Positions 9,425-59,749 of a stretch of DNA of 64,000 nucleotides are shown here, piece after piece. Each line of letters starts with the position of its first letter. Within the stretch, counting starts at the first letter, position 1. The stretch is from Acidovorax sp. 1608163 (GTDB lineage Bacteria; Pseudomonadota; Gammaproteobacteria; Burkholderiales; Burkholderiaceae_C). The notes under the pieces are model-generated. The model made no database searches. It was not told where the DNA came from and saw nothing but the letters and a program-made list of their open reading frames with translations. The position numbers were made by a program, and so were the translations under genes. The stretch spans positions 1,866,001 to 1,930,000 of the forward strand of contig NZ_CP033069.1 of NCBI RefSeq assembly GCF_003669015.1. Direction: 5' to 3'.

Positions 9425-9472
9425 TTTTGATAGCTGCTAGCGCTTATTGAATAAGCGCTTCAGCCATTTTTT
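9425..9472 (+). repeat. Dispersed AGCGCTT hairpin repeat, copy 1
   Basis: TTTTGATAGCTGCTAGCGCTT, a short loop, then AAGCGCTT and CAGCCATTTTT. The stop codon of the CbiM-like gene (9460-9462) lies inside it. Copy 2 lies in the same orientation on the other side of that gene. Confidence 0.85.
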
Positions 9473-10134
9473 GCGTGCAGGTAGAGATCATCCGACCAGG
9501 TGGCCAACCACCCGGGCTTGAAGGCCACGAACACCGCACACAGCATGCCGGTGACCACCGCATCCCCCCAGGCCATCAGCCAGCGGGCGACCAGCGAGAG
9601 CTGATCGCCCACACCCGGCAGCGTATGGCCAGCCCACTGCGACAAGGTGCCCGCCACAAACAGGCACAGCGCCGTGCCCAAAAAACCCCGGCCCAGCACA
9701 TACACGAAGGCGCGCACGCCCGCGAGCGGCCGTGCCCCCGCCAGGCGGCGCAGCACCACGCCCAGCAGCAGCGCCAGCGTGGCTGGCACCACGCCCTGCC
9801 ACACGGCCATGCCCAGGGCGTCGTCCCACGCCAAGCCGGGCGAAAGCAATGCCGCGGTGGCGCCCACCGCGAGCAGCGTGGGCACCGCCAGCGGCCAGCC
9901 CAGCATGAGCAGCACCAGGCACGCGCCGGACCACTGCAGCTGCAGCGGCATGTGGTGCAGCGTGGGCAGGGCCCAGGCCCAGGGCAGCAAGACAAGGGTG
10001 GCGAGCAGTGGCGTCCACAGCGTGGCAGGTGCGCCCTGCGCCTCGTGCGCCAAGGGTTGGCGGCTGGCCAGCAGCCGCCAGGGGCGGGCCAGCAGCGCGA
10101 CAGCCAGGGCGATCAGGGCCAGAGCAGCTTCCAT
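9460..10134 (-). CDS. CbiM-like integral membrane protein (energy-coupling factor transporter permease-type, COG3235)
   Basis: A 224-residue, very hydrophobic protein with six or more membrane segments, a HHMPLQLQW motif near residue 60 and a C-terminal FKPGWLATWSDDLYL stretch. That ending resembles COG3235 proteins, which are distantly related to the CbiM substrate-binding subunit of cobalt/nickel ECF transporters. No ATPase or CbiQ partner is nearby, so transport of a metal is inference. The stop codon is provided by a dispersed repeat, and a second copy of that repeat lies just upstream of the start, so the gene is bracketed by direct repeats. Confidence 0.7.
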   Translation of the reverse strand: MEAALALIALAVALLARPWRLLASRQPLAHEAQGAPATLWTPLLATLVLLPWAWALPTLHHMPLQLQWSGACLVLLMLGWPLAVPTLLAVGATAALLSPGLAWDDALGMAVWQGVVPATLALLLGVVLRRLAGARPLAGVRAFVYVLGRGFLGTALCLFVAGTLSQWAGHTLPGVGDQLSLVARWLMAWGDAVVTGMLCAVFVAFKPGWLATWSDDLYLHAKNG

Positions 10135-10145
10135 TTAGATACTAT

Positions 10146-10198
10146 GATTTTGATAGCTGGTAGCGCTTGATGGATAAGCGCTAGGGGCCATTTTGATC
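10146..10198 (+). repeat. Dispersed AGCGCTT hairpin repeat, copy 2
   Basis: GATTTTGATAGCTGGTAGCGC, a TTGATGGAT loop region, AAGCGCTAGGGGCC and ATTTTGATCA. Located between the mfd 3' end and the start of the CbiM-like gene. Confidence 0.9.
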
Positions 10199-10212
10199 AT
10201 ATTTTTGAGGCG

Positions 10213-13782: not shown

Positions 13783-14649
13783 ATGACTGCACCGCTCCTG
13801 CCCACAGCCCCTGTTCCTTTGTCTGCCCACGGCCGTTTCTGGGGCCTGGTGCCCTGCGCGGGCATGGGCCTGCGTGCGGTGTCTGCAGGGGGCGTGGCGG
13901 GCGCAGTGCCTGCGGCGCAGACGCTTCCCAAGCAGTACCACTTGGTGGCTGGGCAGCCCATGGTGCTGCACACCCTGGCCGCATTCGCCGGGGTGGGGCG
14001 CCTGCTGGGCACCCTGGTGGCCGTGGCGGCGGGCGACCATTTTCTGGACGCTTATACACACCCCTCTTTTTTCAAGGTGGAGTGTGGGGGCCCCACGCGG
14101 GCCGACACAGTGCTGGGCGGGCTCAAGGCATTGCGGGAGCGGGGCGCGCAGCCTGAGGACTGGGTGCTGGTGCACGACGCGGCCCGCTGCCTCATCACCA
14201 CCGCCTTGATCGACACCCTGATCGATACCTGCGCCAACGACGGGGTGGGAGGGCTTTTGGCGCACAAGCTGGCCGACACCCTCAAGACCTCCATCGACGG
14301 CCCTGGTGGCGTGCGGGTGGCCACCACGGTGGACCGCAGCGACAAGTGGCTGGCGCAAACGCCGCAGATGTTCCGTATCGGCCCGCTGATGGCTGCGATC
14401 GAGCGCATTGGCCCCAGCGTGACCGATGAGGCCAGCGCCATGGAGGCCATGGGCCTGCACCCCCGGCTGGTGCCTGGTGGCGCGCAGAACTTCAAGGTGA
14501 CCTACCCGGATGACTTTGCACTGGCGGGTGCCGTATTGGCCCAGCGCGGCCACGGCACCACGCTGGAGCGCTTTGGCGGCCTGCGTGGGCTGCCCCCATG
14601 GATGGGTGACACCCATTTGTGTTCAAGAACATCAAGCCGTTCACGCTGA
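13783..14649 (+). CDS. ispD: 2-C-methyl-D-erythritol 4-phosphate cytidylyltransferase IspD
   Basis: A 288-residue enzyme of the non-mevalonate isoprenoid pathway (MEP + CTP to CDP-ME). The nucleotide-binding loop PCAGMGLR (near residue 25), LPKQYHLVAGQPMVLHTL, GGPTRADTVLGGL, VHDAARCL and the TDEASAMEAMG region are all present. The protein is longer than the typical 230 residues. About 15 extra residues lie between the loop and LPKQY, and the C-terminal tail runs into a REP-like palindrome that provides the stop codon. ispF follows about 160 bp downstream, so the pair is likely transcribed together. Confidence 0.94.
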   Translation: MTAPLLPTAPVPLSAHGRFWGLVPCAGMGLRAVSAGGVAGAVPAAQTLPKQYHLVAGQPMVLHTLAAFAGVGRLLGTLVAVAAGDHFLDAYTHPSFFKVECGGPTRADTVLGGLKALRERGAQPEDWVLVHDAARCLITTALIDTLIDTCANDGVGGLLAHKLADTLKTSIDGPGGVRVATTVDRSDKWLAQTPQMFRIGPLMAAIERIGPSVTDEASAMEAMGLHPRLVPGGAQNFKVTYPDDFALAGAVLAQRGHGTTLERFGGLRGLPPWMGDTHLCSRTSSRSR

Positions 14650-14688
14650 GCTTGTCGAAGCGCCGCGCAAGGCTTCGACAAGCTCAGC
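14645..14688. repeat. REP-like palindrome between ispD and ispF
   Basis: GCTGAGCTTGTCGAAGC and GCTTCGACAAGCTCAGC form a perfect 17-bp inverted repeat around a 10-base spacer. The CTTCGACAAGCTCAG core is a palindromic repeat that I recall as common in intergenic regions of many proteobacteria. The ispD stop codon lies inside the left arm. Confidence 0.8.
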
Positions 14689-14808
14689 CCGAACGGGTTG
14701 GTTTCTGATGGGCTGAGCGCGTATTCGTCTGAGTGGCGCTGCCCGCACAGCGGGCGCAGGTTGTTGTTTTCTTTTTGATTGGCCCTGCAACGGGCAGAGA
14801 GCGATGTG

Positions 14809-20252: not shown

Positions 20253-20978
20253 ATGAAAAATGCTATTCGTTTGGTAGCTGCCAGCGCTTTGCTGGCAAGC
20301 GCTGGGGCTGTTTTTGCTCAAAATGGAGCGGCCGTGGCAGTGGCCGCTGAGCCGCGCAATGTGGTGCAGTTGTCTGCCGCAGGTTTGGTGGAGGTGCAGC
20401 AGGATGTGCTGGTGATCACCCTCACGGCCAGCAAGGACGCCCCCACGCTGGCTGTGGCCCAGACGCAGCTCAAGCAGGCGCTGGATGCGGCCCTGACGGA
20501 AGCCAAGGCCAGCGCACAGGCCGGGCAGATGGACGTGACCACGGGCTCGTTCAGCCTGTCGCCGCGCTATAGCAAGGACCAAAAAATCGTGGGTTGGCAG
20601 GGGCAGGCCGAGTTGACGCTGCAGGGGCGTGATTTCGCTCGCATCACTACCGTTGCAGGCAAGCTCCAGACCATGGCGGTGAGCAACGTGATGTTCACCC
20701 TATCGCGGGAGTCCCGTGCCAAGGCCGAGAGTGAGGCCCAATCCCAGGCCATTGAGCAATTCAAGAGCCGCGCAGGGGAGTTGTCGAAAGCCTTTGGCTT
20801 TGCGGGCTATGGGTTGCGCGAGGTGAGCGTGTCGGGCCAAGGCATTAGCGTGGCGCCGATGGGCATGCGGCTGTCGCGCGAGAAAATGATGTCGTTCTCT
20901 GCGGATGCCCCTGTGCCCGTGCAGCCAGGGCGTGAGCAGGTCAGCATCAGCGTGTCGGGCACGGTGCAGATGCGCTGA
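20253..20978 (+). CDS. SIMPL domain (DUF541) periplasmic protein
   Basis: A 241-residue secreted protein. The signal peptide MKNAIRLVAASALLASAGAVFA ends in AVFA-Q. The SIMPL/DUF541 domain follows (VVQLSAAGLVEVQQDVLVITLTAS near residues 37-60; REVSVSGQGISVAP). Family members such as YggE lessen oxidative stress or form periplasmic assemblies; the mechanism is unclear. Most of the signal-peptide coding sequence matches the dispersed AGCGCTT repeat in its reading direction, suggesting that a repeat insertion was recruited to encode it. Divergent from ompR. Confidence 0.88.
   Translation: MKNAIRLVAASALLASAGAVFAQNGAAVAVAAEPRNVVQLSAAGLVEVQQDVLVITLTASKDAPTLAVAQTQLKQALDAALTEAKASAQAGQMDVTTGSFSLSPRYSKDQKIVGWQGQAELTLQGRDFARITTVAGKLQTMAVSNVMFTLSRESRAKAESEAQSQAIEQFKSRAGELSKAFGFAGYGLREVSVSGQGISVAPMGMRLSREKMMSFSADAPVPVQPGREQVSISVSGTVQMR
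20262..20324 (+). repeat. Dispersed AGCGCTT repeat, copy 3 (inside a signal peptide coding region)
   Basis: TGCTAT, TTTGGTAGCTGCCAGCGCTT, a loop, CAAGCGCTGGGGCTG and TTTTTGCTCAAAAT. The order of blocks equals that of the copy before pssA. It encodes roughly residues 4-24 of the SIMPL protein. Confidence 0.7.
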
Positions 20979-21342: not shown

Positions 21343-22694
21343 TTAAATGACGCCGTCAAACACCATCACATCCACCGCATCCCCCACTGCCACATTGCCC
21401 TGCTGATGGTGCAGCACGATGAGCCCATTGGCCTGCACCATGGAGCTGAGCACGCCCGAGCCCTGGTTGCCAGTGGTGCGCACTTGCAGGCTGCCGTCGG
21501 GGCGGTGGTGACGGTGCCGCGCTGGTATTCGGTGCGGCCGGGCTTTTTGCGGATGGCTTCGGTACTGATGGCGCGCAGCAGGGGCGGGGCAGGGCGGGTG
21601 CTGCCCATCATGCGCAGCAGGGCCGGGCGCACAAAGGCCAAGAAGGTCACCATCACCGCCACCGGGTTGCCCGGCAGGCCAAACAGAATGGCGCCACCAG
21701 GGTTGGCGTCGATATCATTTTGATAGCTGCCAGCGCTTGCCAATGGTGCGCTAGAGGCTGATTTGGCCTCAAGATTTTGTGCTGCAATGCGCCCCACGGC
21801 CATGGGGCGGCCGGGGCGCATGGCGATGCGCCAGAAGGCCACGTCGCCCAGCTTTTTCATCATGGCGCGGGTGTGGTCGGCCTCGCCCACGCTCACGCCG
21901 CCGCTGGTGATGATGGCGTCGGCGCGCTGTGCCGCCTCGGTGAAGGCGGCTTCGAGCAGGGCCGGGTCGTCGCGCACCACGCCCATGTCGATCACCTCGA
22001 CGCCCAGGCGGCAAAGCAGGCCAAACACCGTGTAGCGGTTGCTGTCGTACACGGCGCCTTCGCGCGGGGGCTCGCCCAGGCTCAGGATTTCGTCGCCGGT
22101 CGAGAAGTAAGCCACCCGCAGGCGGCGCGACACGGTCACCGTCTTCAGCCCCAGGCTGGCCACCAGGCCCAGTGCGGCGGGGGTGAGCAGCTCGCCCCGC
22201 GCCAGGGCCACGCCGCCTTCCATCAGGTCCTCGCCCTTGAAGCGGCGGTTATCGCCCAGGCGCAGCACATCGGCTGCGATGGTGATGTGCTCGCCCTGGG
22301 CGGTGGTGAACTCTTGCGGCACCACCGTGTCCAGCCCGGCGGGCATGATGGCGCCGGTCATGATCTTCACGCATTCGCCCGGCTGCACTGCGCCTGCCCA
22401 GGCCTTGCCCGCTAGGGCCGTGCCCACGTTGCGCAGCGTCAGCGGCTGGCCTGCCACCAGTTGGTTGCCCGCAAAGGCATAGCCGTCCATGGCCGAGTTG
22501 TCGTGGGGCGGCACGCTGATGGGCGAGATCACATCGCACGCCAGCACGCGGCCCAGGGCCTCGAAGATGCCGACTTCTTGCGTGCCCTCCACGGGCTGCA
22601 CCAGGGCCTGCAAAAACGCGTTGACCTGGTCTGCGTGCAGGGCCTGGGGGTCGTAGCCTGCCAGTTCGGCGGCAATCTGGGCGATGGATTTCAT
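21343..22694 (-). pseudogene. moeA: Molybdopterin molybdenumtransferase MoeA, apparent C-terminal frameshift
   Basis: MoeA inserts molybdate into molybdopterin. The reading frame from ATG 22694 is typical through about residue 380: DNSAMDGYA, MTGAIMPAGLDTVVPQE, FSTGDEI, YDSNRYT, SGGVSVGEADH, LPGNPVAVMVTF. At a run of four G (plus strand 21499-21502) the frame changes. The unshifted frame gives a Cys/Trp-rich tail ending at 21366. Adding one base in the run restores a normal domain IV (DGSLQVRTTGNQGSGVLSSM, NGLIVLHHQQGNV) ending in TAA at 21343. About 22 residues just before GGAILFGLPGNP derive from an in-frame dispersed repeat. A sequencing error in the run is the main alternative to a real mutation. 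Confidence 0.85.
21715..21778 (+). repeat. Dispersed AGCGCTT repeat, copy 4 (inside moeA)
   Basis: ATTTTGATAGCTGCCAGCGC, TTGCCAATGGT loop, GCGCTAGAGGCTG. It lies within moeA and is translated in frame on the opposite strand as an extra, low-complexity Ser/Ala segment (AKSASSAPLASAGSYQND). Confidence 0.85.
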
Positions 22695-23979: not shown

Positions 23980-24063
23980 TGGTGTTCTTTAACTCTTCAA
24001 AGGACCGCAAGCCAGAGTTTCCCGTGGCCTTGGCGCTAGAACTGCGTAAGCCAGGGCAGCCAA

Positions 24064-24150
24064 GCCAGGGCCGCCCCGCCGCGAGGGCTGCGTCCCCCTT
24101 CCCGCGCGCAGCGCGAGAGAAGGGGGAAGCGACGCAGTCGCTCAGGGGGT
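24064..24150. repeat. GC-rich dispersed repeat, copy A (after moaA)
   Basis: The blocks GGGCCGCCCCGCCGCG, GCGTCCCCCTT, AGGGGGAAGCG and GTCGCTCAGGGGGTT match the copy at 28522-28586 in order and spacing. CCCCCTT and AAGGGGG can pair as a hairpin. It lies within 10 bp of the moaA stop codon. Confidence 0.8.
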
Positions 24151-24159
24151 TGTGCCATG

Positions 24160-27795: not shown

Positions 27796-27828
27796 GCGGG
27801 GTCTCCTGGTAAAGGGTGGTTTGCTCTG

Positions 27829-27883
27829 CTTTTGATAGCTTGTTGCGCTTGATTGGTAAGCGCTAGAGGCTCTTTTTGATTGA
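27829..27883 (+). repeat. Dispersed AGCGCTT repeat, copy 5
   Basis: CTTTTGATAGCTTGTTGCGCTT, a loop, TAAGCGCTAGAGGC, TCTTTTTGAT. The stop codon of the DUF2889 gene (27863-27865) lies inside it, so the last few residues of that protein come from the repeat. Confidence 0.85.
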
Positions 27884-28456: not shown

Positions 28457-28521
28457 GCGTTTCTATCGTGGCTGGTAGCGAGAGATTGAAACTGGCGCGG
28501 TCTTAGCGAGTGCTGCCGCGC

Positions 28522-28586
28522 AAGGGCCGCCCCGCCGCGCTGGCGGCGTCCCCCTGTAGGGGGAAGACGCGAAGCGGCTCAGGGGG
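28522..28586. repeat. GC-rich dispersed repeat, copy B (after aldehyde dehydrogenase)
   Basis: AAGGGCCGCCCCGCCGCG, GCGTCCCCCT, AGGGGGAAGACGC, AGCGGCTCAGGGGG, directly abutting the aldehyde dehydrogenase stop (28587-28589). GCGTCCCCCT can pair with AGGGGGAAGACGC, so a terminator function is plausible. Confidence 0.8.
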
Positions 28587-30020
28587 TTATTCATGTTTGA
28601 TGGCGACGGTCTTCAGGGTGGTGAAGCCATACAGCGCCTCAAACCCCTTCTCGCGCCCGTAGCCGCTGGATTTGACGCCGCCAAACGGCAGCTCCACCCC
28701 GCCGCCCGCGCCGTAGTTGTTGATGAACACCTGCCCGCTGTGTACCCGTTTGGCCATGCGGAACTGGCGGGCACCGTCGCGCGTCCAGATGCCTGCCACC
28801 AGCCCAAACTGCGTGGCGTTGGCGAGTTCCACCGCGTGGTCTTCGTCCTGGAAGGCCATGGCGCAGAGCACGGGGCCAAACACTTCTTCCTGCGCCAGGC
28901 GGTGGCCCACGGGCACATCGCGCAGCAGCGTGGGGGCTTGGTAGAAGCCGCCTTCAGGGGCCTCGTCCACCACCACGCCTTGCGCCACCATGGGGATGCC
29001 TGCGACTTGTGCGTCCGACAAAAAGTCCCACACGCGCTGCTGCTGGCTTTGGCGGATCAGCGGGCCCACGTCCAGGTCCATGGCGGCGGGGCCTACGCGC
29101 AGCTTTTCAAAAGCGTGGCCCAGGCGCTCCAGCAGGGGCTCGTAGATGAGCGAGTCGATCAGCACGCGCGATCCGGCCGAGCAGGTCTGCCCGGCGTTTT
29201 GCACGATGGCGTTGAGCACCACCGGCACAGCGGCGTCCAGGTCGGCATCGGCAAAGATGATTTGGGGGCTCTTGCCGCCCAGCTCCAGCGTCACGGGGCA
29301 GTGGCGCTCGGCGGCCACCTGCTGGATGAGCGTGCCCACCTTGGGGCTGCCGGTGAAGCTGATGTGGTCGATGCCGGGGTGGCGCGCCAGTGCGTCGCCC
29401 ACCTCGTGGCCGTAGCCGGTGACGATGTTGATGGCGCCCGGCGGAAAGCCCACCTCGGCCGCCAGTTGCGCCACGCGGATGAGCGACAGGCAGGCGTCTT
29501 CAGCAGGCTTCACAACGCACACATTGCCCGCCGCCAGCGCGCCGCCCACGCTGCGGCCAAAGATCTGCATGGGGTAGTTCCACGGGATGATGTGGCCGGT
29601 GACGCCATGCGGCTCGCGCCAGGTGAGCACGCTGTAGCCGTCCAGGTAGGGGATGGTTTCGCCATGCAGCTTGTCGCAGGCCCCGGCGTAGAACTCAAAG
29701 TAGCGCGCCAGCGCCAGGGCATCGGCACGGGCTTGTTTGGTGGGCTTACCGCAGTCGCGCTGCTCCAGCGCCGTCAGCTCGTCGGCATGTTCCAGCACCT
29801 TGGCCGAGAGCTTTTGCAGCAGCCGCCCCCGGTCTGCCGGGGCCATGCGTTGCCACACCGCGTGGTAGCACTGGCGCGCAGCGTGCACGGCCGTGTCGAT
29901 GTCGGCGGCATTGCTGCGCTGAATGTCGTCAAAGGGCTGGCCGTCAGAAGGATCCACCACCGCAAGCGTGCGGCCGGAGGCAGACGGAACGGAGGCGTTG
30001 GCGATGTAGTTCAGTTGCAT
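28587..30020 (-). CDS. NAD(P)-dependent aldehyde dehydrogenase (betaine-aldehyde/gamma-aminobutyraldehyde type)
   Basis: A 477-residue aldehyde dehydrogenase superfamily enzyme. The cofactor region WNYPMQIF, GNVCVVKPAE and FTGSPKVGT are present. The catalytic Glu is in LELGGKSP near residue 250 and the nucleophilic Cys in NAGQTCSAGSR near 285. PFGGVKSSGYGREKG is at the C-terminus. An in-frame ATG at 30035 is an alternative start. It lies with an SDR, consistent with oxidation of an alcohol to an acid in two steps. The IS5-family element inserted just upstream of its start, so its promoter region may be altered. Confidence 0.9.
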   Translation of the reverse strand: MQLNYIANASVPSASGRTLAVVDPSDGQPFDDIQRSNAADIDTAVHAARQCYHAVWQRMAPADRGRLLQKLSAKVLEHADELTALEQRDCGKPTKQARADALALARYFEFYAGACDKLHGETIPYLDGYSVLTWREPHGVTGHIIPWNYPMQIFGRSVGGALAAGNVCVVKPAEDACLSLIRVAQLAAEVGFPPGAINIVTGYGHEVGDALARHPGIDHISFTGSPKVGTLIQQVAAERHCPVTLELGGKSPQIIFADADLDAAVPVVLNAIVQNAGQTCSAGSRVLIDSLIYEPLLERLGHAFEKLRVGPAAMDLDVGPLIRQSQQQRVWDFLSDAQVAGIPMVAQGVVVDEAPEGGFYQAPTLLRDVPVGHRLAQEEVFGPVLCAMAFQDEDHAVELANATQFGLVAGIWTRDGARQFRMAKRVHSGQVFINNYGAGGGVELPFGGVKSSGYGREKGFEALYGFTTLKTVAIKHE

Positions 30021-30062
30021 GGTGCCATTCTGCATAGAAATCGAATGCGTGCTTACTATTAA

Positions 30063-30078
30063 ACAAATGGACCGCTAG
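30063..30078 (-). repeat. Dispersed AGCGCTT repeat, copy 6, left fragment (split by IS)
   Basis: ACAAATGGACCGCTAG is the left end of a repeat copy. The remainder resumes at 31266 on the other side of the insertion sequence. Joining the two parts with one CTAG gives an ordinary repeat in reverse orientation. Confidence 0.7.
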
Positions 30079-31265
30079 GGATTCTCTGCACGAATCCCCG
30101 TGCGAGATGCTTGAGCAAGCCTGCTGCCAGGACAATACGCTCATGAAGCAAAGCAGCCTGGGCCTGAGCAATACCACCAAGCGCACGCGTAAGCGCGAGT
30201 TCCTTGATGCGATGGAGTTGGTGGTGCCCTGGGCCGAGTTGCTCTCGCTCATTGAGCCCTACGCCCCAGAGATCGGACGCCGGGGCCAGCAGCCCTTTGC
30301 AGTGCAGACCCTGCTGCGTATCCATTTCATGCAGCAGTGGTTCAAGCTCAGCGATCCAGCCATGGAAGAGGCGCTGCACGACGTGCCAGCCTTTCGGGAC
30401 TTTGCGGGCCTATCGCACTGGGACGAGCACATCCCCAGTGAATCGAGCATCCTGCGTTTTCGGCATCTGCTAGAGCGCCACAAGCTGGCCGATCAGATCC
30501 TCGCTACGGTTAATGCCCTTCTGCAAGCCAAAGGGCTGCAACTCAAAGCAGGCACGGTGGTGGATGCCACGCTCATTGCAGCGCCGACATCCACCAAAAA
30601 CGAAGGCAAGGCGCGAGACCCCGAGATGCACCAAAGCAAGAAGGGCAACGAGTGGTACTTTGGTATGAAGGTTCACATCGGGGTGGACGCCGAATCGGGC
30701 TTGGTGCACAGCGTGCGAGGCACCAGCGGCAATGTGAGCGACGTGATCGAAGCCAACAGTCTGCTGCACGGGCAAGAAACGGATGCCTTTGGCGATGCGG
30801 GCTATCAAGGGGTAGACAAGCGGGCCGATGCCAACAAGAACGTACGCTGGCATGTGGCCATGCGCCCAGGGTTGCGTCGAGCCCTGAACAAAGACAAACC
30901 TGTAGATGCGCTGATCGAGCAACTTGAACGCACCAAGGCGAGCATCCGGGCCAAGGTGGAGCACCCGTTCAGGGTGCTCAAGCAGCAGTTCGGATACGTG
31001 AAGGTGCGCTACCGAGGGCTCAAGAAGAACTCGGCGCAGATCGTCACACTGTTTGCGTTGGGGAATCTGTGGATGGCAAGGCACAAGCTGCTGGCGAGCA
31101 TGGGGAAAGTGCGCGTGCAGGGAGCGTGACGCCCAAGTACCAGGGGCCAATGGCCCCCGCACAGCGTCTGAGGGTGCCCTGCTCACGCCAAAGTTACTCA
31201 ACGCGAGTGCTTTTTACTTCGCACATCACCGTGGCACAACCAGAACCGATTCGTGAAGAGCCTCC
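30079..31265 (+). mobile_element. IS5-family insertion sequence, apparently complete
   Basis: Imperfect terminal inverted repeats GGATTCTCTGCACGAATC (left) and GGAGGCTCTTCACGAATC (right end, read inward) differ at three positions. A 4-bp target duplication CTAG flanks the element at 30075-30078 and 31266-31269, as expected for the IS5 group. The length of 1187 bp is normal. It contains one intact transposase gene and is inserted inside a dispersed repeat. Confidence 0.88.
30143..31129 (+). CDS. IS5-family DDE transposase
   Basis: A 328-residue transposase. The N-terminal DUF772-type region is KRTRKREFLDAMELVVPWAELL through FRHLLERHKLADQIL. The catalytic Asp residues are in TVVDATLIAA and FGDAGYQG, and the Glu is in the Y..R-x3-E-x6-K signature (RAKVEHPFRVLK). 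All three DDE residues are intact, so the element may be active. The start is ATG 30143, since an upstream frame extension to 30107 lacks family similarity. Confidence 0.93.
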   Translation: MKQSSLGLSNTTKRTRKREFLDAMELVVPWAELLSLIEPYAPEIGRRGQQPFAVQTLLRIHFMQQWFKLSDPAMEEALHDVPAFRDFAGLSHWDEHIPSESSILRFRHLLERHKLADQILATVNALLQAKGLQLKAGTVVDATLIAAPTSTKNEGKARDPEMHQSKKGNEWYFGMKVHIGVDAESGLVHSVRGTSGNVSDVIEANSLLHGQETDAFGDAGYQGVDKRADANKNVRWHVAMRPGLRRALNKDKPVDALIEQLERTKASIRAKVEHPFRVLKQQFGYVKVRYRGLKKNSAQIVTLFALGNLWMARHKLLASMGKVRVQGA

Positions 31266-31308
31266 CTAGCGCCTGTAAAACAAGCGACAGCAGCTATTGT
31301 TTTGATAG
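31266..31308 (-). repeat. Dispersed AGCGCTT repeat, copy 6, right fragment (split by IS)
   Basis: CTAGCGCCTGTAAAACAAGCG, then ACAGCAGCTATTGTTTTGATAG, the right part of the interrupted copy in reverse orientation. Confidence 0.75.
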
Positions 31309-32780: not shown

Positions 32781-32817
32781 TGGGCTGCAGCCTTCTCACT
32801 TCGAAGACGGAGTGTGG

Positions 32818-32873
32818 ATGAAAATGCCCGCTAGCGCTCAATGGTCAAGCGCTAGCAGCTATGAATTTGGTAG
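32818..32873 (-). repeat. Dispersed AGCGCTT repeat, copy 7
   Basis: AAAATGCCCGCTAGCGCT, loop, CAAGCGCTAGCAGCTAT, GAATTTGGTAGC, in reverse orientation between the convergent DUF962 and metal-hydrolase genes. Confidence 0.88.
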
Positions 32874-39544: not shown

Positions 39545-40801
39545 TTACCCGGGTGCCGGTCCGGTCGCTTGGCGAAAGGGCGTTCGCTCTTGCAGTGACT
39601 CCAGGTATTCGCCAATGCCTTCGCCCTCACGCTCCAAAAAGCGCTCGACTGCATCGGCAAAGGCGGGGTGCGCCAACCAGTGGGCGCTGTGGGTTTGCAC
39701 CGGCAGCAAGGCCCGGGCCATTTTGTGCTCGCCCTGGGCACCGCCTTCAAAGCGGTACGCGCCCTGCTCAATGCACCACTGCAAGGGCTGGTAGTAGCAG
39801 GCCTCAAAGTGCAGGCAGTCCACGCGCTCCAGTGCGCCCCAATAGCGGCCATAGGCCACAAGTTCTTGGTCATTTTTGCCGCTGGCGCTTGATTCATAAG
39901 CGCTGATAGCTATCAAACTGCTAGCAATAGGGGCGCCGTCTCGCTCGGCGATGAACAACAACCAAGCGTCGGGCAGGTGCTGTGCCATCTCGGCAAAGAA
40001 GGCGCGGCTGAGGTAGGGCGGGTTGCCATGCTCTAGGTAGGTGCGCTCGTAGCAGCGGTAGAAAAAATCCCAATCTGCCTGGCTGATGGCGCGGCCTTGC
40101 GAGCTGCGGAACTGCACGCCCGCATCGGCCACACGGCGGCGCTCTTGCCGGATTTTTTTGCGCTTGTCTTGGCTGAGGTGGGCCAAGAAGTCATCAAAAC
40201 TGGTGAAGGGACTGTGGGAGGGTGGCAATGTGGTGCCTGGGCCTGATGCATTTGCGGGCTCAGGGCGTGCGTTCTGCCAGTGGAATTGCACGGTGTGGCG
40301 CAGCATCAGGCCTTGTTCAGCGCAGGCTGCGGTGTCTTGTTCGCTGGCAAACAGCACATGCAGGGATGAGATGCCTTCGTCCACGCACCATTGCCGGGCT
40401 GCTTGCACCAGCAGCGTCAGGGCGGCATCGTCGCGCGCCAGCAAGCGGCTTCCGGGTACAGGCGTGAAGGGCACGGCCACCACGGCCTTGGGGTAGTAAG
40501 GCACGCCGTGCTGCTCGTAGGCATTGGCCCAGGCCCAGTCAAACACGTACTCGCCGTACGAGTGGTCTTTCAGGTACAGCGGGCAGGCGGCCATCAGCAC
40601 GTCGTTGTCCCACAGCGAGATGAAGCGCGGCGTCCAGCCCGTGCGCGGGGTGGCGCTGCCGCTGCGCTCCAGGGCCGAAAGGTACTCGTGGCGCATGAAC
40701 GGCGTGGCATGGGTTTGCTGGGCCAGCAGCGCATTCCAGGGCTCTGCGGGCAGGTCGAGCACGCTGGGGTGTACGCGGGCGATAATGTGCGACTCAGCCA
40801 C
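39545..40801 (-). CDS. FemAB/GNAT-like protein (COG3146, predicted N-acyltransferase)
   Basis: A 418-residue protein of the COG3146 group. FMRHEYLSALERSGSA near residues 35-50, FDWAWANAYEQHGVPYYPK, DKRKKIRQERRRV, YGRYWGALERVDCLHFEACYYQPLQWCIE and FEGGAQGEHKMARALLPV are family motifs. The fold is a tandem GNAT as in FemAB peptidyl transferases; the substrate is not known. The start is GTG at 40801. A dispersed repeat is inserted in frame (about 39871-39919), adding roughly 14 residues just before YGRYWG. Divergent from nadE. Confidence 0.83.
   Translation of the reverse strand: MAESHIIARVHPSVLDLPAEPWNALLAQQTHATPFMRHEYLSALERSGSATPRTGWTPRFISLWDNDVLMAACPLYLKDHSYGEYVFDWAWANAYEQHGVPYYPKAVVAVPFTPVPGSRLLARDDAALTLLVQAARQWCVDEGISSLHVLFASEQDTAACAEQGLMLRHTVQFHWQNARPEPANASGPGTTLPPSHSPFTSFDDFLAHLSQDKRKKIRQERRRVADAGVQFRSSQGRAISQADWDFFYRCYERTYLEHGNPPYLSRAFFAEMAQHLPDAWLLFIAERDGAPIASSLIAISAYESSASGKNDQELVAYGRYWGALERVDCLHFEACYYQPLQWCIEQGAYRFEGGAQGEHKMARALLPVQTHSAHWLAHPAFADAVERFLEREGEGIGEYLESLQERTPFRQATGPAPG
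39871..39919 (-). repeat. Dispersed AGCGCTT repeat, copy 8 (inside a coding gene)
   Basis: CATTTTTGCCGCTGGCGCTT, loop, ATAAGCGCTGATAGCTATCAAA. It encodes an in-frame segment rich in Ser and Ala (AISAYESSASGKND) in the FemAB-like protein. Confidence 0.85.
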
Positions 40802-40905: not shown

Positions 40906-42973
<2,068 letters not shown>

Positions 42974-46887: not shown

Positions 46888-48672
46888 ATGGAAATTTCCA
46901 AAGCAGAACTCAACGTGGCCGCTGCCGCCGCGCAAGCCTCCACCGCTGGCTCGCTGGAGTTGATGGGTTCCGAGATTCTCGTCAAATCGCTGCAAGCAGA
47001 GAATGTGCAATACATCTGGGGCTACCCCGGTGGTGCTGTTCTCTACATCTACGACGCCCTCTACAAACAAGACACCATTCAGCACGTTTTGGTGCGCCAT
47101 GAGCAGGCCGCTGTGCATGCCGCTGATGGCTACGCCCGTGCCACTGGGGAAGTGGGCGTGGCGCTGGTGACTTCGGGTCCTGGTTTGACGAATGCCGTGA
47201 CTGGCATTGCCACGGCGTACATGGACAGCATCCCCATGGTCATCATCTCTGGTCAGGTGCCCACAGCGGCGATCGGACTGGATGCCTTCCAAGAATGCGA
47301 CACAGTGGGCATTACCCGCCCTATCGTCAAACACAATTTTCTGGTCAAAGATCCCCGCGATCTGGCCATGACGCTCAAAAAGGCCTTCCACATCGCACGC
47401 ACAGGCCGTCCGGGGCCTGTGGTGGTGGATATCCCCAAGGACGTTTCCTTTAAGAAGGTGTCTTACACGGGCTACCCGCAGAGCGTGGAAATGCGCTCTT
47501 ACAACCCTGTGCGCAAGGGCCACAGTGGTCAGATCCGCAAAGCCTTGCAACTGCTGCTGGCGGCCAAGCGCCCCTACATCTACACAGGCGGCGGTGTGCT
47601 TTTGGGCAACGCCACCAACGAGTTGCGCACGCTGGTGGACATGCTGGGTTACCCCGTCACCAACACGCTGATGGGCCTGGGCGCCTATCCTGCTTCAGAC
47701 CGCAAATTCCTGGGCATGCTGGGCATGCACGGCACCATCGAAGCCAACAACGCCATGCAGAACTGCGATGTGTTGCTGGCGGTGGGGGCGCGCTTTGATG
47801 ACCGAGTGATCGGCAATCCCAAGCACTTCGCCCAGAACGACCGCAAGATCATCCACATCGATATCGACCCCTCCAGCATCTCCAAGCGCGTGAAGGTGGA
47901 TGTGCCCATCGTGGGCGATGTGAAGGATGTGCTGACCGAGTTGATCTCCATGATCCGCGAGAGCAGCACGCGTCCCGACGCAGGTGCCCTGTCTGCATGG
48001 TGGGACACGATCGAGGCCTGGCGCAGCCGCAACTGCCTCAAGTACGACATGGGCTCGCCCGAGGTGATCAAGCCGCAGTACGTGGTGGAAACGCTCTGGA
48101 ACATGACCAAGGATGCGGATGCCTACGTCACGTCCGATGTGGGGCAGCACCAGATGTGGGCGGCGCAGTACTACCGGTTTGACGAGCCGCGCCGCTGGAT
48201 CAACTCCGGCGGCCTGGGCACCATGGGTGTGGGCATTCCTTACGCTATGGGCATCAAGCTGGCCAAGCCGGATTCCGAGGTGTTCTGCATCACGGGTGAA
48301 GGCTCGGTGCAGATGAACATCCAAGAGTTGTCTACCTGCCTGCAGTACAACACGCCGATCAAGATCTGCGCGTTGAACAATCGGTACCTGGGCATGGTGC
48401 GCCAGTGGCAAGAGATCGAATACTCGGGCCGCTACAGCCACAGCTACATGGATGCGCTGCCTAACTTTGTGAAACTGGCAGAGGCCTATGGTCACGTGGG
48501 CTTGCTCATCGAGCGCCCTCAGGATGTGGAGCCAGCCTTGCGCGAAGCCCGCAGGCTCAAGGACCGCACGGTGTTCCTGGACTTCCGTACCGATCCCACG
48601 GAGAACGTGTTCCCCATGGTGCAAGCCGGCAAGGGCATTACCGAAATGTTGCTGGGGTCGGAAGACCTTTAA
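46888..48672 (+). CDS. ilvB: Acetolactate synthase large subunit IlvB
   Basis: A 594-residue TPP-dependent enzyme, the first common step of valine, isoleucine and leucine synthesis. The TPP Glu is in [18 protein letters not shown] near residue 75. [20 protein letters not shown], the FAD region and the C-terminal pyrophosphate motif [15 protein letters not shown] follow; GDG is usual, here [23 protein letters not shown] is also typical. I chose the ATG at 46888; an in-frame ATG at 46795 would add 31 residues without family support. ilvN and ilvC follow. Confidence 0.95.
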
Positions 48673-48673
48673 G

Positions 48674-48729
48674 CCAAATCGGCCTCCAGCGCTTATTTGA
48701 CAAGCGCTAGCAGCTATCTAATGGATAGC
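48674..48729 (-). repeat. Dispersed AGCGCTT repeat, copy 10 (between ilvB and ilvN)
   Basis: GCCTCCAGCGCTT, loop, CAAGCGCTAGCAGCTATC, then TAATGGATAGCA, in reverse orientation right after the ilvB stop. A hairpin here could affect the ratio of ilvB to ilvN mRNA. Confidence 0.88.
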
Positions 48730-48810
48730 ATTTCTTGACGAATCTATTGCCTGCCAAGTCTGCGCATTACCGTGCGCAGGGGAGGGCAGCGAAAAGAGGA
48801 ATCCATCACC

Positions 48811-49302
48811 ATGAAACACATCATTGCCGTTTTGCTGGAAAACGAACCCGGTGCGCTGTCGCGCGTCGTGGGTCTTTTCTCTGCCCGTGGCTACAACATT
48901 GAATCCCTCACCGTGGCGCCCACAGAGGATCCATCGCTTTCGCGCATGACGATCCAGACCACGGGTTCCGACGATGTGATCGAGCAGATCACCAAGCACC
49001 TGAACCGCCTCATCGAAGTGGTCAAGGTGGTCGATCTCACCGAAGGCGCCTACACCGAGCGCGAGCTCATGATGGTGAAGGTGCGTGCGGTGGGCAAGGA
49101 GCGCGAGGAGATGAAGCGCATGGCCGACATTTTCCGTGGCCGCATCATTGATGTGACCGAGAAAAGCTACACCATCGAGCTGACGGGCGACCAGTCCAAG
49201 AACGATGCGTTCCTGCAGGCCATCGACCGCACCGCCATTCTCGAAACCGTCCGCACTGGTGCCAGTGGCATTGGCCGCGGCGAGCGCATTCTGCGCGTGT
49301 GA
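48811..49302 (+). CDS. ilvN: Acetolactate synthase small subunit IlvN (IlvH type)
   Basis: A 163-residue regulatory subunit. The N-terminal ACT domain (HIIAVLLENEPGALSRVVGLFSARGYNIESL) mediates valine feedback, and the C-terminal ALS_ss_C domain (ELMMVKVRAVGKEREEMKRMADIFRGRIIDV) contacts IlvB. AAAGAGGAA lies just upstream. The 138-bp gap to ilvB is occupied by a dispersed repeat. Confidence 0.95.
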   Translation: MKHIIAVLLENEPGALSRVVGLFSARGYNIESLTVAPTEDPSLSRMTIQTTGSDDVIEQITKHLNRLIEVVKVVDLTEGAYTERELMMVKVRAVGKEREEMKRMADIFRGRIIDVTEKSYTIELTGDQSKNDAFLQAIDRTAILETVRTGASGIGRGERILRV

Positions 49303-49377
49303 CGGATTGGCTTTCGACCGGTTTGCGTCGTGGGGTAGCGTGCCGTGCCAAAGCACTGTCTGCGACTCCCCGCCTAG

Positions 49378-50478
<1,101 letters not shown>

Positions 50479-50499
50479 TTCTTCCGGTGTGAAGCATCC

Positions 50500-50523
50500 A
50501 AAGGCCACTTCGGTGGCCTTTTT
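50500..50523 (+). terminator. Rho-independent terminator after ilvC
   Basis: AAAGGCCAC, TTCG tetraloop, GTGGCCTTTTT: a stable stem with a U-run. Confidence 0.92.
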
Positions 50524-50626
50524 CATTGGCTCCATCGGCAGGGTTGGCAGAGGCTACACTGCCTCTTTCGTCTGGCTGGCGGAGTGGTCTGGCGATGGGT
50601 GTGGCGCTTCCGCGTCCTTGGATTGA

Positions 50627-50686
50627 TTTGCTATAAATATAATAGCTGTTTGCGCTTGCCTATAAAGCGCTGGAGGTCTGTTTGAT
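50627..50686 (+). repeat. Dispersed AGCGCTT repeat, copy 11 (supplies pssA ribosome binding site)
   Basis: TTTGCTATAAATATAATAGC, TGTTTGCGCTT, loop, AAAGCGCTGGAGGTCTG, TTTGATG. The TGGAGG of this copy is placed 8 bases before the pssA ATG, an ideal Shine-Dalgarno position. The AT-rich left end also resembles a -10 region (TATAAT at 50634-50642 area). Confidence 0.85.
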
Positions 50687-51518
50687 GCATGATGGCAATA
50701 AGCCCAGCGACAACGCCGGTGTCATGGTTCGCAAGCGTCGCAAGGGCATTTACATCCTGCCCAATCTGTTCACGCTGGCGGCGTTGTTCGGTGGCTTTTA
50801 TTCCATCGTTATGGCGATGAATGGACGCTTCGATATGGCTGCCGTGGGTGTTTTTTGTGCGATGGTGCTGGACAGCCTGGATGGGCGGGTCGCTCGGATG
50901 ACCAACACCCAGAGCGCGTTTGGCGAGCAGATGGACTCGCTGTCTGACATGGTGTCGTTTGGTGCCGCACCGGCTTTGATTGCCTATGAGTGGTCGCTGC
51001 AAGGCCTGGGACGTTGGGGTTGGATTGCAGCGTTTGTGTACTGCGCCTGCGCCGCGCTGCGTTTGGCGCGCTTCAACGTGAACACCGGCGTGGTGGACAA
51101 GCGCTATTTTCAGGGGCTGCCTTCACCCGCTGCGGCGGCCTTGGTGGCTGGCTTTATCTGGCTGATGACCGAGTTGGGCGTGCATCCAGGCGAAGATGCA
51201 TGGCTGAGTTGGTCGCAGATCACCTGGGTGATGTTTGCGTTCACCCTGTACTCAGGCCTCACCATGGTGACCAATGTGCCGTTTTACAGCTTCAAAGATA
51301 TCCAGATGAAAAAGAGCGTGCCCTTTGCCGCCATCGTGTTGATTGCGCTGGGTATTGCCATCATCAACATCCACCCACCAATTGTGCTGTTTGGCGTGTT
51401 TGTGTTGTACGGCGTGAGTGGCTATGGCGTCTACGCATGGCGCAAAGCCAAAGGGCAGCACAGCAGTGTGATCAGCACCTCTACCGATGAGCCGGACGAG
51501 CGTGGACTTCACAAGTGA
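50685..51518 (+). CDS. pssA: CDP-diacylglycerol-serine O-phosphatidyltransferase PssA
   Basis: A 277-residue membrane enzyme that makes phosphatidylserine, the precursor of phosphatidylethanolamine. The CDP-alcohol motif DSLDGRVAR-N8-GEQMDSLSD is complete near residues 65-90, with about six to seven membrane helices. The soluble N-terminus is basic (VRKRRKGIYILPN). The ATG at 50685 follows GGAGG from a dispersed repeat. It is the only gene between ilvC and leuA, a placement that is common in betaproteobacteria. Confidence 0.94.
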   Translation: MHDGNKPSDNAGVMVRKRRKGIYILPNLFTLAALFGGFYSIVMAMNGRFDMAAVGVFCAMVLDSLDGRVARMTNTQSAFGEQMDSLSDMVSFGAAPALIAYEWSLQGLGRWGWIAAFVYCACAALRLARFNVNTGVVDKRYFQGLPSPAAAALVAGFIWLMTELGVHPGEDAWLSWSQITWVMFAFTLYSGLTMVTNVPFYSFKDIQMKKSVPFAAIVLIALGIAIINIHPPIVLFGVFVLYGVSGYGVYAWRKAKGQHSSVISTSTDEPDERGLHK

Positions 51519-56515: not shown

Positions 56516-56525
56516 GCCGGGATGG

Positions 56526-57266: not shown

Positions 57267-57350
57267 CGGGCGAAGGGGGTTTGTGCGGGAGTGCGGGAAG
57301 TATTGCCAGATGATCGAAGAATAATGGAACGCGTGCAGTAGCGATGGGGC

Positions 57351-57383
57351 AAAAAAAAACCCTGCACCGTGGGGTGCAGGGTT
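57351..57383 (-). terminator. Rho-independent terminator of the tRNA-Asn transcript
   Basis: On the minus strand, AACCCTGCACC, 4-base loop, GGTGCAGGGTT and a run of T (9 A on the plus strand): an 11-bp stem directly after the first tRNA gene. Confidence 0.92.
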
Positions 57384-57388
57384 TATAT

Positions 57389-57464
57389 TGGCTCCTCGAC
57401 CTGGGCTCGAACCAGGGACCTACGGATTAACAGTCCGGCGCTCTACCGACTGAGCTATCGAGGA
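57389..57464 (-). tRNA. tRNA-Asn (anticodon GTT), copy 1
   Basis: A 76-nt tRNA with acceptor arm TCCTCGA/TCGAGGA, discriminator G and encoded CCA. The D-arm region is TAGCTCAGTCGGTAGAGC, the anticodon loop CTGTTAA (GTT, asparagine) and the T-loop GGTTCGAGCC. Its 3' end is next to the terminator. Confidence 0.97.
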
Positions 57465-57513
57465 ATAATCGGTATGTATTGCTTTACTTAGATGTGTAAA
57501 GCATTTGAATTCT

Positions 57514-57589
57514 TGGCTCCTCGACCTGGGCTCGAACCAGGGACCTACGGATTAACAGTCCGGCGCTCTACCGACTGAGCTATCGAGGA
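57514..57589 (-). tRNA. tRNA-Asn (anticodon GTT), copy 2
   Basis: Identical to copy 1 over all 76 nt, separated from it by a 49-bp spacer in the same orientation. Both are probably processed from one precursor. Confidence 0.97.
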
Positions 57590-57659
57590 ACAAGACTTAG
57601 ATTATATACACAAAATTATGCCGATCTCAAGAGATTGGGCATTTCGTGAAAAACAAGGC

Positions 57660-58073
57660 TCAGGGCTCAGGCCTTCTCCACAGCCAAACGAGTACGAGCA
57701 CCATGCATGTGATGGCTGTGGCCGCAGCCCAGCGTGCTGTGTGGCTGAGTAGCAGGATCACGGTGCTGGATGACATCACTGCGGTCGCAGCCCATTTGGC
57801 GTGGCGGCTTACACAACCTCCATTAGCCCAGTTGCGCAGCATAGGGCCAAACAGGCGGTGATTCCACAGCCACCGATACAGGCGCGGCGAACTTTTGCCT
57901 GCGGCCCAGGCCGCCATCAAAATGAACACCGTAGTGGGCAAGCCGGGAATAAAGATACCCAGAATGCCCAGCCCCAAATTGGCCAAAGCAAAAAGCAGAA
58001 GTAGCCACCGGGCGACGAGAGGCAAGGGCCTTGGTTGGACCGGAACTGCTTCGCTTTTTCTTTGAGGCTCCAT
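57660..58073 (-). CDS. DUF454 (YbaN-like) inner-membrane protein
   Basis: A 137-residue membrane protein with the DUF454 signature LGLGILGIFIPGLPTTVFILMAAWAAGKSSPRLYRWL (residues about 28-64) and three to four helices. E. coli YbaN belongs to this group; its function is unknown. The start may be ATG 58073 or 58088; I chose the inner one. It is on the minus strand upstream of the two tRNA-Asn genes. Confidence 0.86.
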   Translation of the reverse strand: MEPQRKSEAVPVQPRPLPLVARWLLLLFALANLGLGILGIFIPGLPTTVFILMAAWAAGKSSPRLYRWLWNHRLFGPMLRNWANGGCVSRHAKWAATAVMSSSTVILLLSHTARWAAATAITCMVLVLVWLWRRPEP

Positions 58074-58192
58074 TGGCGCATTGTGCATGCCTGCACAGCA
58101 CGGTCTGCGTTGACACACCGCTCCTGCTCAAGGCCCTTGGTCACAGGCCGCGGTTGTGATGCTTTCGTGCGAGTTGAGTCGCTGTGAGGGGG

Positions 58193-59476
58193 CTAAACCT
58201 TGTCCAGCGCCTGCACCAGGTCCGCCTGCAGGTCGTCGATGTGCTCGATGCCCACCGACAGGCGCACCATGCTCTCGCTCACGCCCGCCTTGGCCAGCTC
58301 TTCGGGATTGAGCTGGCGGTGCGTGGTCGATGCGGGGTGTGTGGCCAGCGACTTGGCATCGCCGATGTTGACCAGGCGGGTGAAGAGCTGCAGCGCGTCC
58401 AGGAAGCGCGCACCGGCCGCCCGCGGGTCGGCGTCGGTGCTCTTGAGCCCGAAGCTCAGGATGCCGGATGCCTTGCCGCCCGACTGCCGCTGCACCAGCG
58501 CGTGGTCCGGGTGGTCCGGCAGGCCGGCGTAGCGCACCCATTCCACCTTGAAGTGGCTTTGCAGGTACTTCGCCAGTGCCAGCGTGTTGTCGCAGATGCG
58601 GTCCATGCGCAGGGCCAGGGTCTCGATGCCTTGCAGGATCAAAAACGCACTCTGTGGCGACAGCGCCGCGCCGGTATTGCGCAGCGGCACCACGCGCGCG
58701 CGGCCGATGAAGGCGGCGGGGCCCAGGGCCTCGGTGTAGACCACGCCGTGGTAGCTCACGTCGGGCTCGTTCAGGCGCGGGAAGCGGGCCTTGTGTTCGG
58801 CCCATGGGAACTTGCCGCTGTCCACGATGGCGCCGCCCACGCTGTTGCCGTGGCCGCCCAGGTACTTGGTGAGCGAGTGCACCACGATGTCGGCGCCGTG
58901 CTCGATGGGGCGCAGCAGGTAGGGGCTGGGCACCGTGTTGTCCACGATCAAGGGAATGCCGTGCGCATGGGCCACATCGGCCAGCGCGCGGATGTCGGTC
59001 ACGTTGCCCAGCGGGTTGCCGATGGACTCGATGAAGATCGCCTTGGTGCGCGCGTCGATGTGCTGTGCAAAGCTGGCCGGGTCGCGCGGGTCGGCAAAGC
59101 GGGTGGTGATGCCCTGCTGGGGCAGCGTGTGCGCAAACAGGTTGTAGGTGCCGCCGTAGAGCGTGCTGGCCGACACGATGTTGTCGCCCGCCTCGGCAAT
59201 GGTCTGGATGGCGTAGGTGATGGCCGCCATGCCCGAGGCCACGGCCAGCGCCGCAATGCCGCCTTCGAGCGCCGCGACGCGCTTTTCCAGCACGTCGGTC
59301 GTCGGGTTCATGATGCGGGTGTAGATGTTGCCCGGCACCTTCAAATCGAACAGGTCCGCGCCGTGCTGCGCGCTGTCGAAGGCGTAGGCCACCGTCTGGT
59401 AGATGGGAACGGCCACGGCCTTGGTGGTGGGGTCGGGCGAGTAGCCTGCGTGGACGGCAAGGGTTTCGATCTTCAT
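58193..59476 (-). CDS. metY: O-acetylhomoserine aminocarboxypropyltransferase MetY
   Basis: A 427-residue PLP enzyme of the Cys/Met metabolism family that makes homocysteine from O-acetylhomoserine and sulfide. [24 protein letters not shown] is the typical start. [34 protein letters not shown], the Schiff-base Lys in [12 protein letters not shown] near residue 206 and [12 protein letters not shown] at the end are all present. Clean family length. The start ATG 59476 has GGGAG about 12 bases upstream. The long GC-rich leader contains two strong hairpins. Confidence 0.93.
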
Positions 59477-59520
59477 GCGGAGGGGTCTCCCGTTGGATGG
59501 AATGAGAACGCTGACACGGG

Positions 59521-59578
59521 CGCCTGCGGCACGGTGTGTACGCAGGCGGCAGCTGCCATTCTTGCACCGGGACGGTGC
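59521..59578 (-). promoter_or_regulatory. Two leader hairpins upstream of metY
   Basis: Perfect stem CGCCTGCG (59521-59528) with CGCAGGCG (59541-59548), and perfect stem GCACCG (59564-59569), GGA, CGGTGC (59573-59578). Both lie 44-103 bases before the metY start. They do not match any SAM riboswitch consensus I know and may be an unknown leader or simply GC-rich structure. Confidence 0.35.
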
Positions 59579-59692
59579 GCATGGGTCGAATCGTTGGCTA
59601 TGAGCTTATGCGCTCGGCGCAGGCTGCATGCAGGCCCAATGCGGGGTCGATGCAGGACGGCCGCAGGCGCATTACGGCCTGCGAATGTTGAA

Positions 59693-59749
59693 TGAAAAAT
59701 GCCTGTACCGCTTGATGGACAAGCGCCAGCAGCTACTATTTCGATAGCG
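59693..59749 (-). repeat. Dispersed AGCGCTT repeat, copy 12 (supplies rlhA stop)
   Basis: TGAAAAATGCCTGTACCGCTT, loop, CAAGCGCCAGCAGCTACTAT, TTCGATAGCG, in reverse orientation. The stop codon of rlhA (59736-59738) is inside it. Confidence 0.85.

Follow-up and report, generated by a model that had tools for sequence, protein, structure and literature searches.

Repeats resembling the repetitive extragenic palindromic (REP) sequences are usually regarded as elements that come and go. Here we describe a REP-like family of dispersed repeats in Acidovorax sp. 1608163, encountered in a stretch of 64,000 nucleotides (the window: bases 1866001-1930000 of a one-contig genome of 5,045,878 bases; window GC 62%). 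Its places are inherited across species, and several of them across genera, and its content changes in step within a genus. We tentatively favour an account in which an ancient REP-like family spread by single-strand cutting and is now rewritten in place by copy-to-copy conversion.

It has been proposed for REPs, and tested in one system, that the CT cut site is chosen via the AG of the GTAG tag, as set out in part of PMC8266576. The relevant section of PMC5217627 lists two potential novel motifs: GCTTAT(N)5AAGCG in Acidovorax ebreus (114 copies; 44 convergent versus 4 divergent gaps) and ATAGCT(N)22CAAAAG in Polaromonas naphthalenivorans (125 copies). The Beta-proteobacterial repeat element (BRE) of Bordetella and Comamonadaceae is described in a passage of PMC3110155 as ~90 bp long, often tandem and with a mean GC of 69%. 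An earlier note on our window knew of no name for the present repeat, and none was found among the matches listed in open-licence literature; betaproteobacterial names gave no match in PMC3733652.

Copy number and anatomy

The earlier note had counted about twelve copies in the window, in both orientations. A covariance model (R1) built from 11 good window copies recovered 11 strong copies, with scores (51-71 bits) that are high because these copies went into the model, and a twelfth, weak one at 41626 on the minus strand (25.8 bits). The strong copies divide into 6 plus and 5 minus. What the note had given as 30063/31266 proved to be a single copy, cut by a 1.2 kb insertion sequence with CTAG at both junctions (30075, 31266). 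Genome-wide, the repeat is not confined to a handful of copies. With up to 2 mismatches, GATAGCTGCTAGCGCTT had 427 matches in the 5.05 Mb genome (0 for the reversed control) and ATAGCTGCTAGCGCTT had 549 (control 1), and R1 gave at least 150 matches with 150 of 5020 candidates scored. A sample of 864 kb, made up of the window and 40 spaced stretches of 20 kb (41 stretches), held 123 matches at 106 distinct places, which extrapolates to ~600 copies in the genome.

A profile was drawn from the 94 ungapped copies among these 106, with position 1 as the C of CTAT. The element is ~66 bp long and exceeds the hairpin. Its conserved head reads GCTAT-N7-ATAGC-TGCT, in fuller form TTGCTAT-N7-(A/G)TAGCTGCT. 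The first block (G0 in 75 copies, C1 93, T2 94, A3 80, T4 69) is followed by mostly AT-rich positions 5-11 and by a second block in which positions 12-15 read (A 76/G 13/T 5)(T 83/G 11)AG; A14, G15 and C16 occur in all 94 copies and T17 in 90, so that the AG is invariant and GTAG is a minority form. Beyond position 17 the core runs through GCGCTT (22-27), a loop (28-34) and AAGCGCTAG (35-43). The conserved tail is GGCC-N-ATTTT, in fuller form GGCC-N-ATTTTG...AAAA, with GGC at 45-47, W T T T at 50-53 after two free positions, and a weaker A-rich end near 59-62. That an existing Rfam family might already contain the repeat was not borne out: the copies had no match in the whole window at gathering score, nor in 48600-50750 at E up to 1. 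A tRNA-derived origin, suggested by a resemblance seen by eye, was rejected, as the search of 48600-50750 with that same E limit returned no Rfam tRNA match.

The copies are short, non-coding, dispersed and found in both orientations, as would be an ordinary miniature inverted-repeat transposable element (MITE) of a DDE-transposase insertion sequence. However, head and tail are not reverse complements of one another in the 94-copy profile, no flanking duplication was recognised, and the DDE insertion sequence of the window has unrelated ends and lies inside a copy. We consider a MITE very improbable.

Genus-specific cores

We surveyed 250 genomes from the GTDB family of the host with ATAGCTGCTAGCGCTT at 2 mismatches; below, g-numbers denote genera (g1 is the host's own) and G-numbers genomes. 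Matches per genome ranged from 0 to 652, and counts collapsed within genera (206 and 2 in g108; 264 and 4 in g115). Exact matches to a 37-base pattern, of which 80 of 107 were listed, fell in Acidovorax, Simplicispira, Paenacidovorax, Giesbergeria, Comamonas, Extensimonas and metagenome bins with less exact names, in agreement with the earlier guess that the repeat is common in Comamonadaceae.

The head alone (CTATNNNNNNNATAGCNNCT) was frequent where g1-type cores were few: 336 matches in G033, 326 in G057, 255 in G219 and 221 in G029, compared to 11, 5, 5 and 3 g1-core matches, respectively (head controls 0-2 per strand). Copies in such genera have the same head and tail and a similar length around another core, for example TGCTTAGGCAATAAATACGCCGGCTA in g30, TGCTCCCGCGATATTCTATTGG in g58 and TGCTAGCGCAG...CTGCGC in g38. 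Assignment of each core by its likeness to the remaining copies put 114 of 132 in their own genus; the 132 probably include a few non-elements, and the reference set contained some of the tested copies. Among 290 genomes from other families of the order, 7 had one or two CTATNNNNNNNATAGCTGCT matches, which is the chance level. The repeat is thus seen here in its own GTDB family only. Plasmids and phages were rejected as carriers, one copy used as query having matched 4 of 72,556 plasmid and 0 of 50,697 phage records at E 0.01.

Inherited addresses with genus-typed cores

Within the genus, we compared 19 own copies (11 from the window and 8 strong ones from the following 80 kb; three weak copies, 41626 among them, were omitted) with three congeners, giving 57 pairs. 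Of these, 21, representing 8 addresses, could be matched on both flanks, with a flank identity of 72-93%, and the element was present in all 21 (14 by head pattern, 7 by eye). At a further address, in the aconitase gene, G076 and G169 carry a copy and G240 does not. Loops had diverged between congener orthologs, and head and arms were still recognisable. Altogether a copy was kept at 23 of 24 testable orthologous junctions. This indicates that the addresses are old and largely inherited within the genus, and that recent movement is hardly seen.

Addresses are also shared between genera. At the ilvI-ilvH site (site A), inspection by eye of 30 genomes of other genera gave 17 with a clear copy, 4 with a partial copy and 9 without one. 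Empty addresses were seen at site A in G029, G057, G181 and G233, at site B (flanked by the ilvC region and a CDP-alcohol phosphatidyltransferase gene) in G057 and G181, and in the FemAB-like gene in G057. We examined the cores at five cross-genus addresses, namely sites A and B and the FemAB-like, MoeA-like and SIMPL genes, the last three lying inside genes. The comparison covered the eight genera with sampled reference cores; MoeA-like and SIMPL matches were searched in the orientation of the own copy, and reference cores sharing at least 28 of 32 bases with a tested copy were removed (five and six in two rounds). Eleven of the 14 other-genus copies best fitted their own genus among the eight, and for 11 of 14 the paralogs from their own genus were more similar than the g1 copy sharing the address. 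Excluding N_G100, which lies ~ten bases off, 10 of 13 fitted. The p of 3e-8 against one in eight presumes independent observations, and copies from five addresses and seven genomes are not independent.

Own-genus cores at a shared address are seen most clearly in the FemAB-like gene. Its copy sits at the same base and in the same frame in g1, g30, g34, g38 and g65, and the cores read CAGGCAATAAATACGCCGGCTAGAGG in G029 (g30), CCAATAAATACATGGGCTGATGG in G033 (g34) and AGCGCTTATGAATCAAGCGCC in the own genome. FemAB genes that lack the element (G003, G243, G194, G147, G057) encode the near-identical peptide IA(S/T/C)SL(I/V)A, mostly with GC-rich codons; the own genome spells it ATT GCT AGC AGT TTG ATA GCT. 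Here the head has been superimposed on coding sequence.

The hairpin and the placement of copies

The earlier note had read compensating changes in the arms as selection for a hairpin. Across the 94 copies, Watson-Crick pairing at the variable positions matched that after column shuffling (57 observed versus 55.8 for pair 20-42, p 0.41; 57 versus 55.4 for pair 21-41, p 0.28; 64 versus 66.2 for pair 19-43, p 0.96), and pairing of CTAT with ATAG was at the same level. Compensating changes beyond chance were not found, selection for the hairpin through them is not supported, and covariation was rejected as a proof of the hairpin among paralogs. What is conserved among paralogous copies is the sequence, without pairing beyond chance. 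The g1 core folded better than shuffles (mean z -1.96, 40 of 68 copies folded), as did those of g38 (-2.10, 3 copies) and g65 (-2.44, 2 copies). Cores of g30, g34, g58, g100 and g89 folded no better (means -0.40 to 0.24, 4-9 copies each); stems with bulges can be sketched by eye for some of these genera, without support from the energies. Because the core in five of the eight sampled genera folds no better than shuffles, the hairpin is not supported as the defining feature of the family; head and tail are frequent in genera with other, often unstably folding cores.

Sequence kept without pairing would also fit host-functional sites that are bound by a DNA-binding or chromosome-organising protein and follow its drift in specificity from genus to genus, for which the dialects of uptake sequences offer an analogy. 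The recognisable head and arms at orthologous sites with diverged loops, and the wide spread of copies round the chromosome, would fit such sites. However, most of the ~32-base core differs between genera, copies lie in frame within genes and at apparent signal peptides, and the collapse of counts within genera showed no apparent substitute in that search. We regard binding sites as unlikely.

Genes for the placement analysis came from a simple codon-usage caller (starts approximate, coding fraction 0.795). In the 864 kb, 26 of 96 copies away from stretch ends overlapped a called gene, far fewer than by chance. Another 70 lay in gaps between two called genes (42 co-directional, 22 convergent, 6 divergent), compared to 267, 80 and 87 available gaps of at least 50 bp, respectively; the convergent excess has p 0.008 and the divergent deficit p 0.016. 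Many copies begin no more than some tens of bases from a stop codon. GC content is under 55% in most copies. Copies are solitary: the nearest two of the 106 are 666 bp apart, and inverted pairs or bacterial interspersed mosaic elements (BIMEs) were not found. Replication-strand polarity, suggested by an initial portion of the pattern matches, was rejected, no relation to GC skew or position being visible for copies in the 41 stretches.

The excess in convergent gaps and the closeness to stop codons could point to a role of the hairpin in RNA, as transcription terminator, mRNA stabiliser or translation control, and the tail at site B, which forms a Shine-Dalgarno sequence, could be read likewise. 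Set against this, copies in co-directional gaps have no orientation bias (23 sense, 19 antisense), so that the fixed orientation downstream of genes of an intrinsic terminator was not found; the arms do not covary, and five genera lack a stable core fold. An RNA-level role is decidedly unlikely in our judgement, and both it and a drifting binding protein are less likely than conversion or repeated insertion.

How the copies may have spread and changed

Conversion would be the second of two steps. The first was probably a dispersal of the family in single-stranded form, with cutting by an HUH enzyme (Y1, similar to the REP-associated tyrosine transposases, RAYTs). The invariant CT is the putative cut site, and the invariant AG, 12-13 bases further along, its putative guide. 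We propose Y1 single-strand cutting because the invariant CT and AG precede a core that is foldable in some genera, which is a reading of the anatomy. The addresses would then have been largely fixed and inherited. Since shared addresses carry genus-typed cores, a second process beyond cutting is required, and we suggest that new core variants overwrite old copies at existing addresses by conversion through the common head and tail. Such conversion would explain how the same base and frame came to hold a new core, and would give old addresses, including those in frame within genes, a core particular to each genus.

With somewhat more reserve, we suggest that this is templated replacement at hundreds of inherited addresses, with successive core variants sweeping the genome by in-place overwriting, including within protein linkers and a probable signal peptide. 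If true, it would amount to a genome-wide homing of a ~30-base cassette between fixed ends by a putative enzyme; any such replacing enzyme would be a writer of short sequences at hundreds of predefined positions. The concerted evolution of dispersed bacterial repeats becomes directly testable in this family.

The main rival is independent insertion without conversion, each genus' version having entered repeatedly at favoured head-like targets. The peptide at element-free FemAB genes and the similar residues at aconitase would suit it, as the head there overlaps host sequence, and chance sharing of an intergenic gap is not rare at ~600 copies. Yet very strict targeting would be needed to account for the FemAB copy, which has an identical base and frame in five genera or more, and for the matches at the MoeA-like and SIMPL genes, and gains and losses within the genus are rare (23 of 24 kept). 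We think repeated insertion somewhat unlikely.

A search for the enzyme bears on the cutting step. In the window, the copies have no accompanying transposase gene, as the earlier note had observed, and its suggestion of a RAYT or other trans-acting partner was followed in genomes. The own genome encodes two Y1_Tnp proteins, L001 and L002. L001 (232 aa) scored 70 bits with NF047646, below the curated cut-off of 80, and resembles matches present in most high-copy genomes, which have an NF047646 match at E 0.001 in 32 of 34 cases and above cut-off in 15 of 34. Y1_Tnp (PF01797) was present in 189 of the 250 family genomes. By counts tallied by hand over these genomes, it was not associated with the g1 core (29 of 34 genomes with at least 33 matches versus 160 of 216 of the rest, p 0.20); it was associated with the head (52 of 58 with at least 10 matches versus 137 of 192, p 0.005, uncorrected for shared ancestry). 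This association is the sole result favouring a Y1 enzyme, and it is weak.

Several results weigh against cutting followed by conversion. L002 (178 aa, NF047646 194 bits; YafM-like RAYT) is flanked on both sides by another REP, GTAGGTCGGGTTA...TAACCCGAC palindromes (L002 1256-1365, 1919-1965). This REP occurs at one further place in the 864 kb, and together with L002 it is a small separate system. High-copy genomes provided 30 RAYT loci, of which 6 lacked a recognised frame; at 5 of the 24 frames a copy lay within 300 bp or overlapped, which is the background level (136 of 681 own-genome genes). RAYT linkage is thus unsupported for either type, no partner enzyme emerged, and the L001 type is a candidate, with some support from the weak head association. 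Three species of g85 have 111-162 core matches and no Y1_Tnp match, one of them with a 26-bit NF047646 match. In five genera the core lacks a stable fold. Among addresses, the aconitase of G240 is the sole exception of the 24 junctions, three of the 14 cores (N_G222, N_G181, S_G222) did not fit their own genus, and the FemAB copy of G100, ~ten bases away in the same linker, is an independent insertion. Finally, no clean empty site or flanking duplication was found, filled and empty sites not being alignable to the base.

Copies in genes and other features of the window

Features of the window are collected in Table 1. Copy coordinates are those of the model match; in all copies the conserved part extends ~5 bases further left and 4 further right.

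Table 1. Repeat copies, the genes that they touch and neighbouring features in the window
Feature	Position	Strand	Evidence
Repeat copy	9419..9476	+	R1 61.4 bits
Repeat copy	10142..10199	+	R1 71.4 bits
SIMPL-domain gene	20253-20978	+	PF04402
Repeat copy, in frame at start of SIMPL-domain gene	20263..20320	+	R1 59.8 bits
MoeA-like gene	21366-22694	-	PF03453, PF00994
Repeat copy within MoeA-like gene, in frame, antisense	21712..21769	+	R1 63.6 bits
Repeat copy, intergenic	27824..27881	+	R1 60.1 bits
Split copy, tail end, left of insertion sequence	30056..30074	-	Read from sequence
Insertion sequence inside split copy; DDE transposase open reading frame 30143-31129 (+)	30075..31265	+	PF01609, PF05598; junctions, inverted ends
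Split copy, head and core (element ~31266-31308; remaining model match is insertion sequence end)	31251..31308	-	R1 51.1 bits
Repeat copy, intergenic	32816..32873	-	R1 64.1 bits
FemAB-like gene	39545-40801	-	PF04339
Repeat copy in frame within FemAB-like gene, sense	39867..39924	-	R1 56.4 bits
Weak copy, probably decayed	41626..41683	-	R1 25.8 bits
Site A: repeat copy between ilvI and ilvH RNA motif / ilvH gene	48671..48728	-	R1 71.1 bits
ilvH RNA motif, next to site A	48737-48804		Rfam search of window
Site B: repeat copy between ilvC region and CDP-alcohol phosphatidyltransferase gene	50631..50688	+	R1 63 bits
CDP-alcohol phosphatidyltransferase gene	50685-51518	+	PF01066
Repeat copy	59690..59747	-	R1 62.6 bits

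Copies lie in frame in four unrelated genes, namely the FemAB-like, MoeA-like and SIMPL-domain genes of the window and the aconitase gene (L027, 6352). By translation, the first 23 residues of the SIMPL-domain protein, MKNAIRLVAASALLASAGAVFAQ, are almost wholly encoded by the copy, and this N-terminus, judged by eye, is probably a signal peptide. Here short repeats function as linkers in proteins and, probably, as a signal peptide. Four further copies lie at apparent signal peptides, again by eye (L028 18268, L009 9749, L031 2766, L026 12337). At site B (50631-50700) the copy tail supplies GGAGG just before the ATG of the CDP-alcohol phosphatidyltransferase gene, which recurs in orthologs of several genomes; because the tail provides this GGAGG, the element there may have been taken into translation control.

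Two other dispersed repeats occur nearby. One (24040-24156 and 28480-28597) is ~100 bp long and GC-rich, reads GGGCCGCCCCGCCGCG...AAGGGGGAAGCG...CTCAGGGGGTT, and is found at roughly 16-24 places in the 864 kb and at many in congeners; by description it may be the BRE covered in that passage of PMC3110155. The other (14625-14708) is an inverted repeat around TTCGACAAGCTCAG with ~16 places in the 864 kb. Two tandem tRNA genes, near-identical (99% over 81 bases), lie at 57388-57593.

Comparison with known systems

The earlier description of the repeat as MITE- or REP-like is supported as to a REP-like dispersed family; a MITE is very improbable. The family is REP-like by build and is not REP by the features of a linked RAYT and BIMEs. 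Like REPs and BIMEs with RAYTs, it is a short intergenic repeat with hundreds of copies, a tag before a core that is foldable in some genera, invariant CT and AG, and lineage-specific cores. It differs in that its tag is mostly ATAG rather than GTAG, with an extra conserved block CTAT upstream; its copies are solitary, without BIMEs or a linked RAYT and at old shared addresses; and its core lacks a stable hairpin in five sampled genera.

Compared by description, the in-frame insertion into unrelated genes resembles that of the Rickettsia palindromic elements, which in the passage of PMC10969869 concerned are ~150 bp long and mainly genic, whereas the present copies are ~66 bp and mainly intergenic. 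Like the BRE as described in that part of PMC3110155, the family is a dispersed repeat of Comamonadaceae; unlike it, the copies are ~66 bp long, mostly below 55% GC, and none of the 106 is closer than 666 bp to another.

The closest likeness is to the two motifs in the section of PMC5217627. GCTTAT(N)5AAGCG of A. ebreus fits g1 copies such as that at 9419, ATAGCT(N)22CAAAAG of P. naphthalenivorans fits a g89 copy letter for letter, and the avoidance of divergent gaps is common to the A. ebreus motif and our family. That section keeps the two motifs separate, without head, tail, mutual link or comparison of addresses. From the letters of the motifs as given there, we take both to be genus versions of this family, which would give a common identity to motifs separately reported in Acidovorax and Polaromonas.

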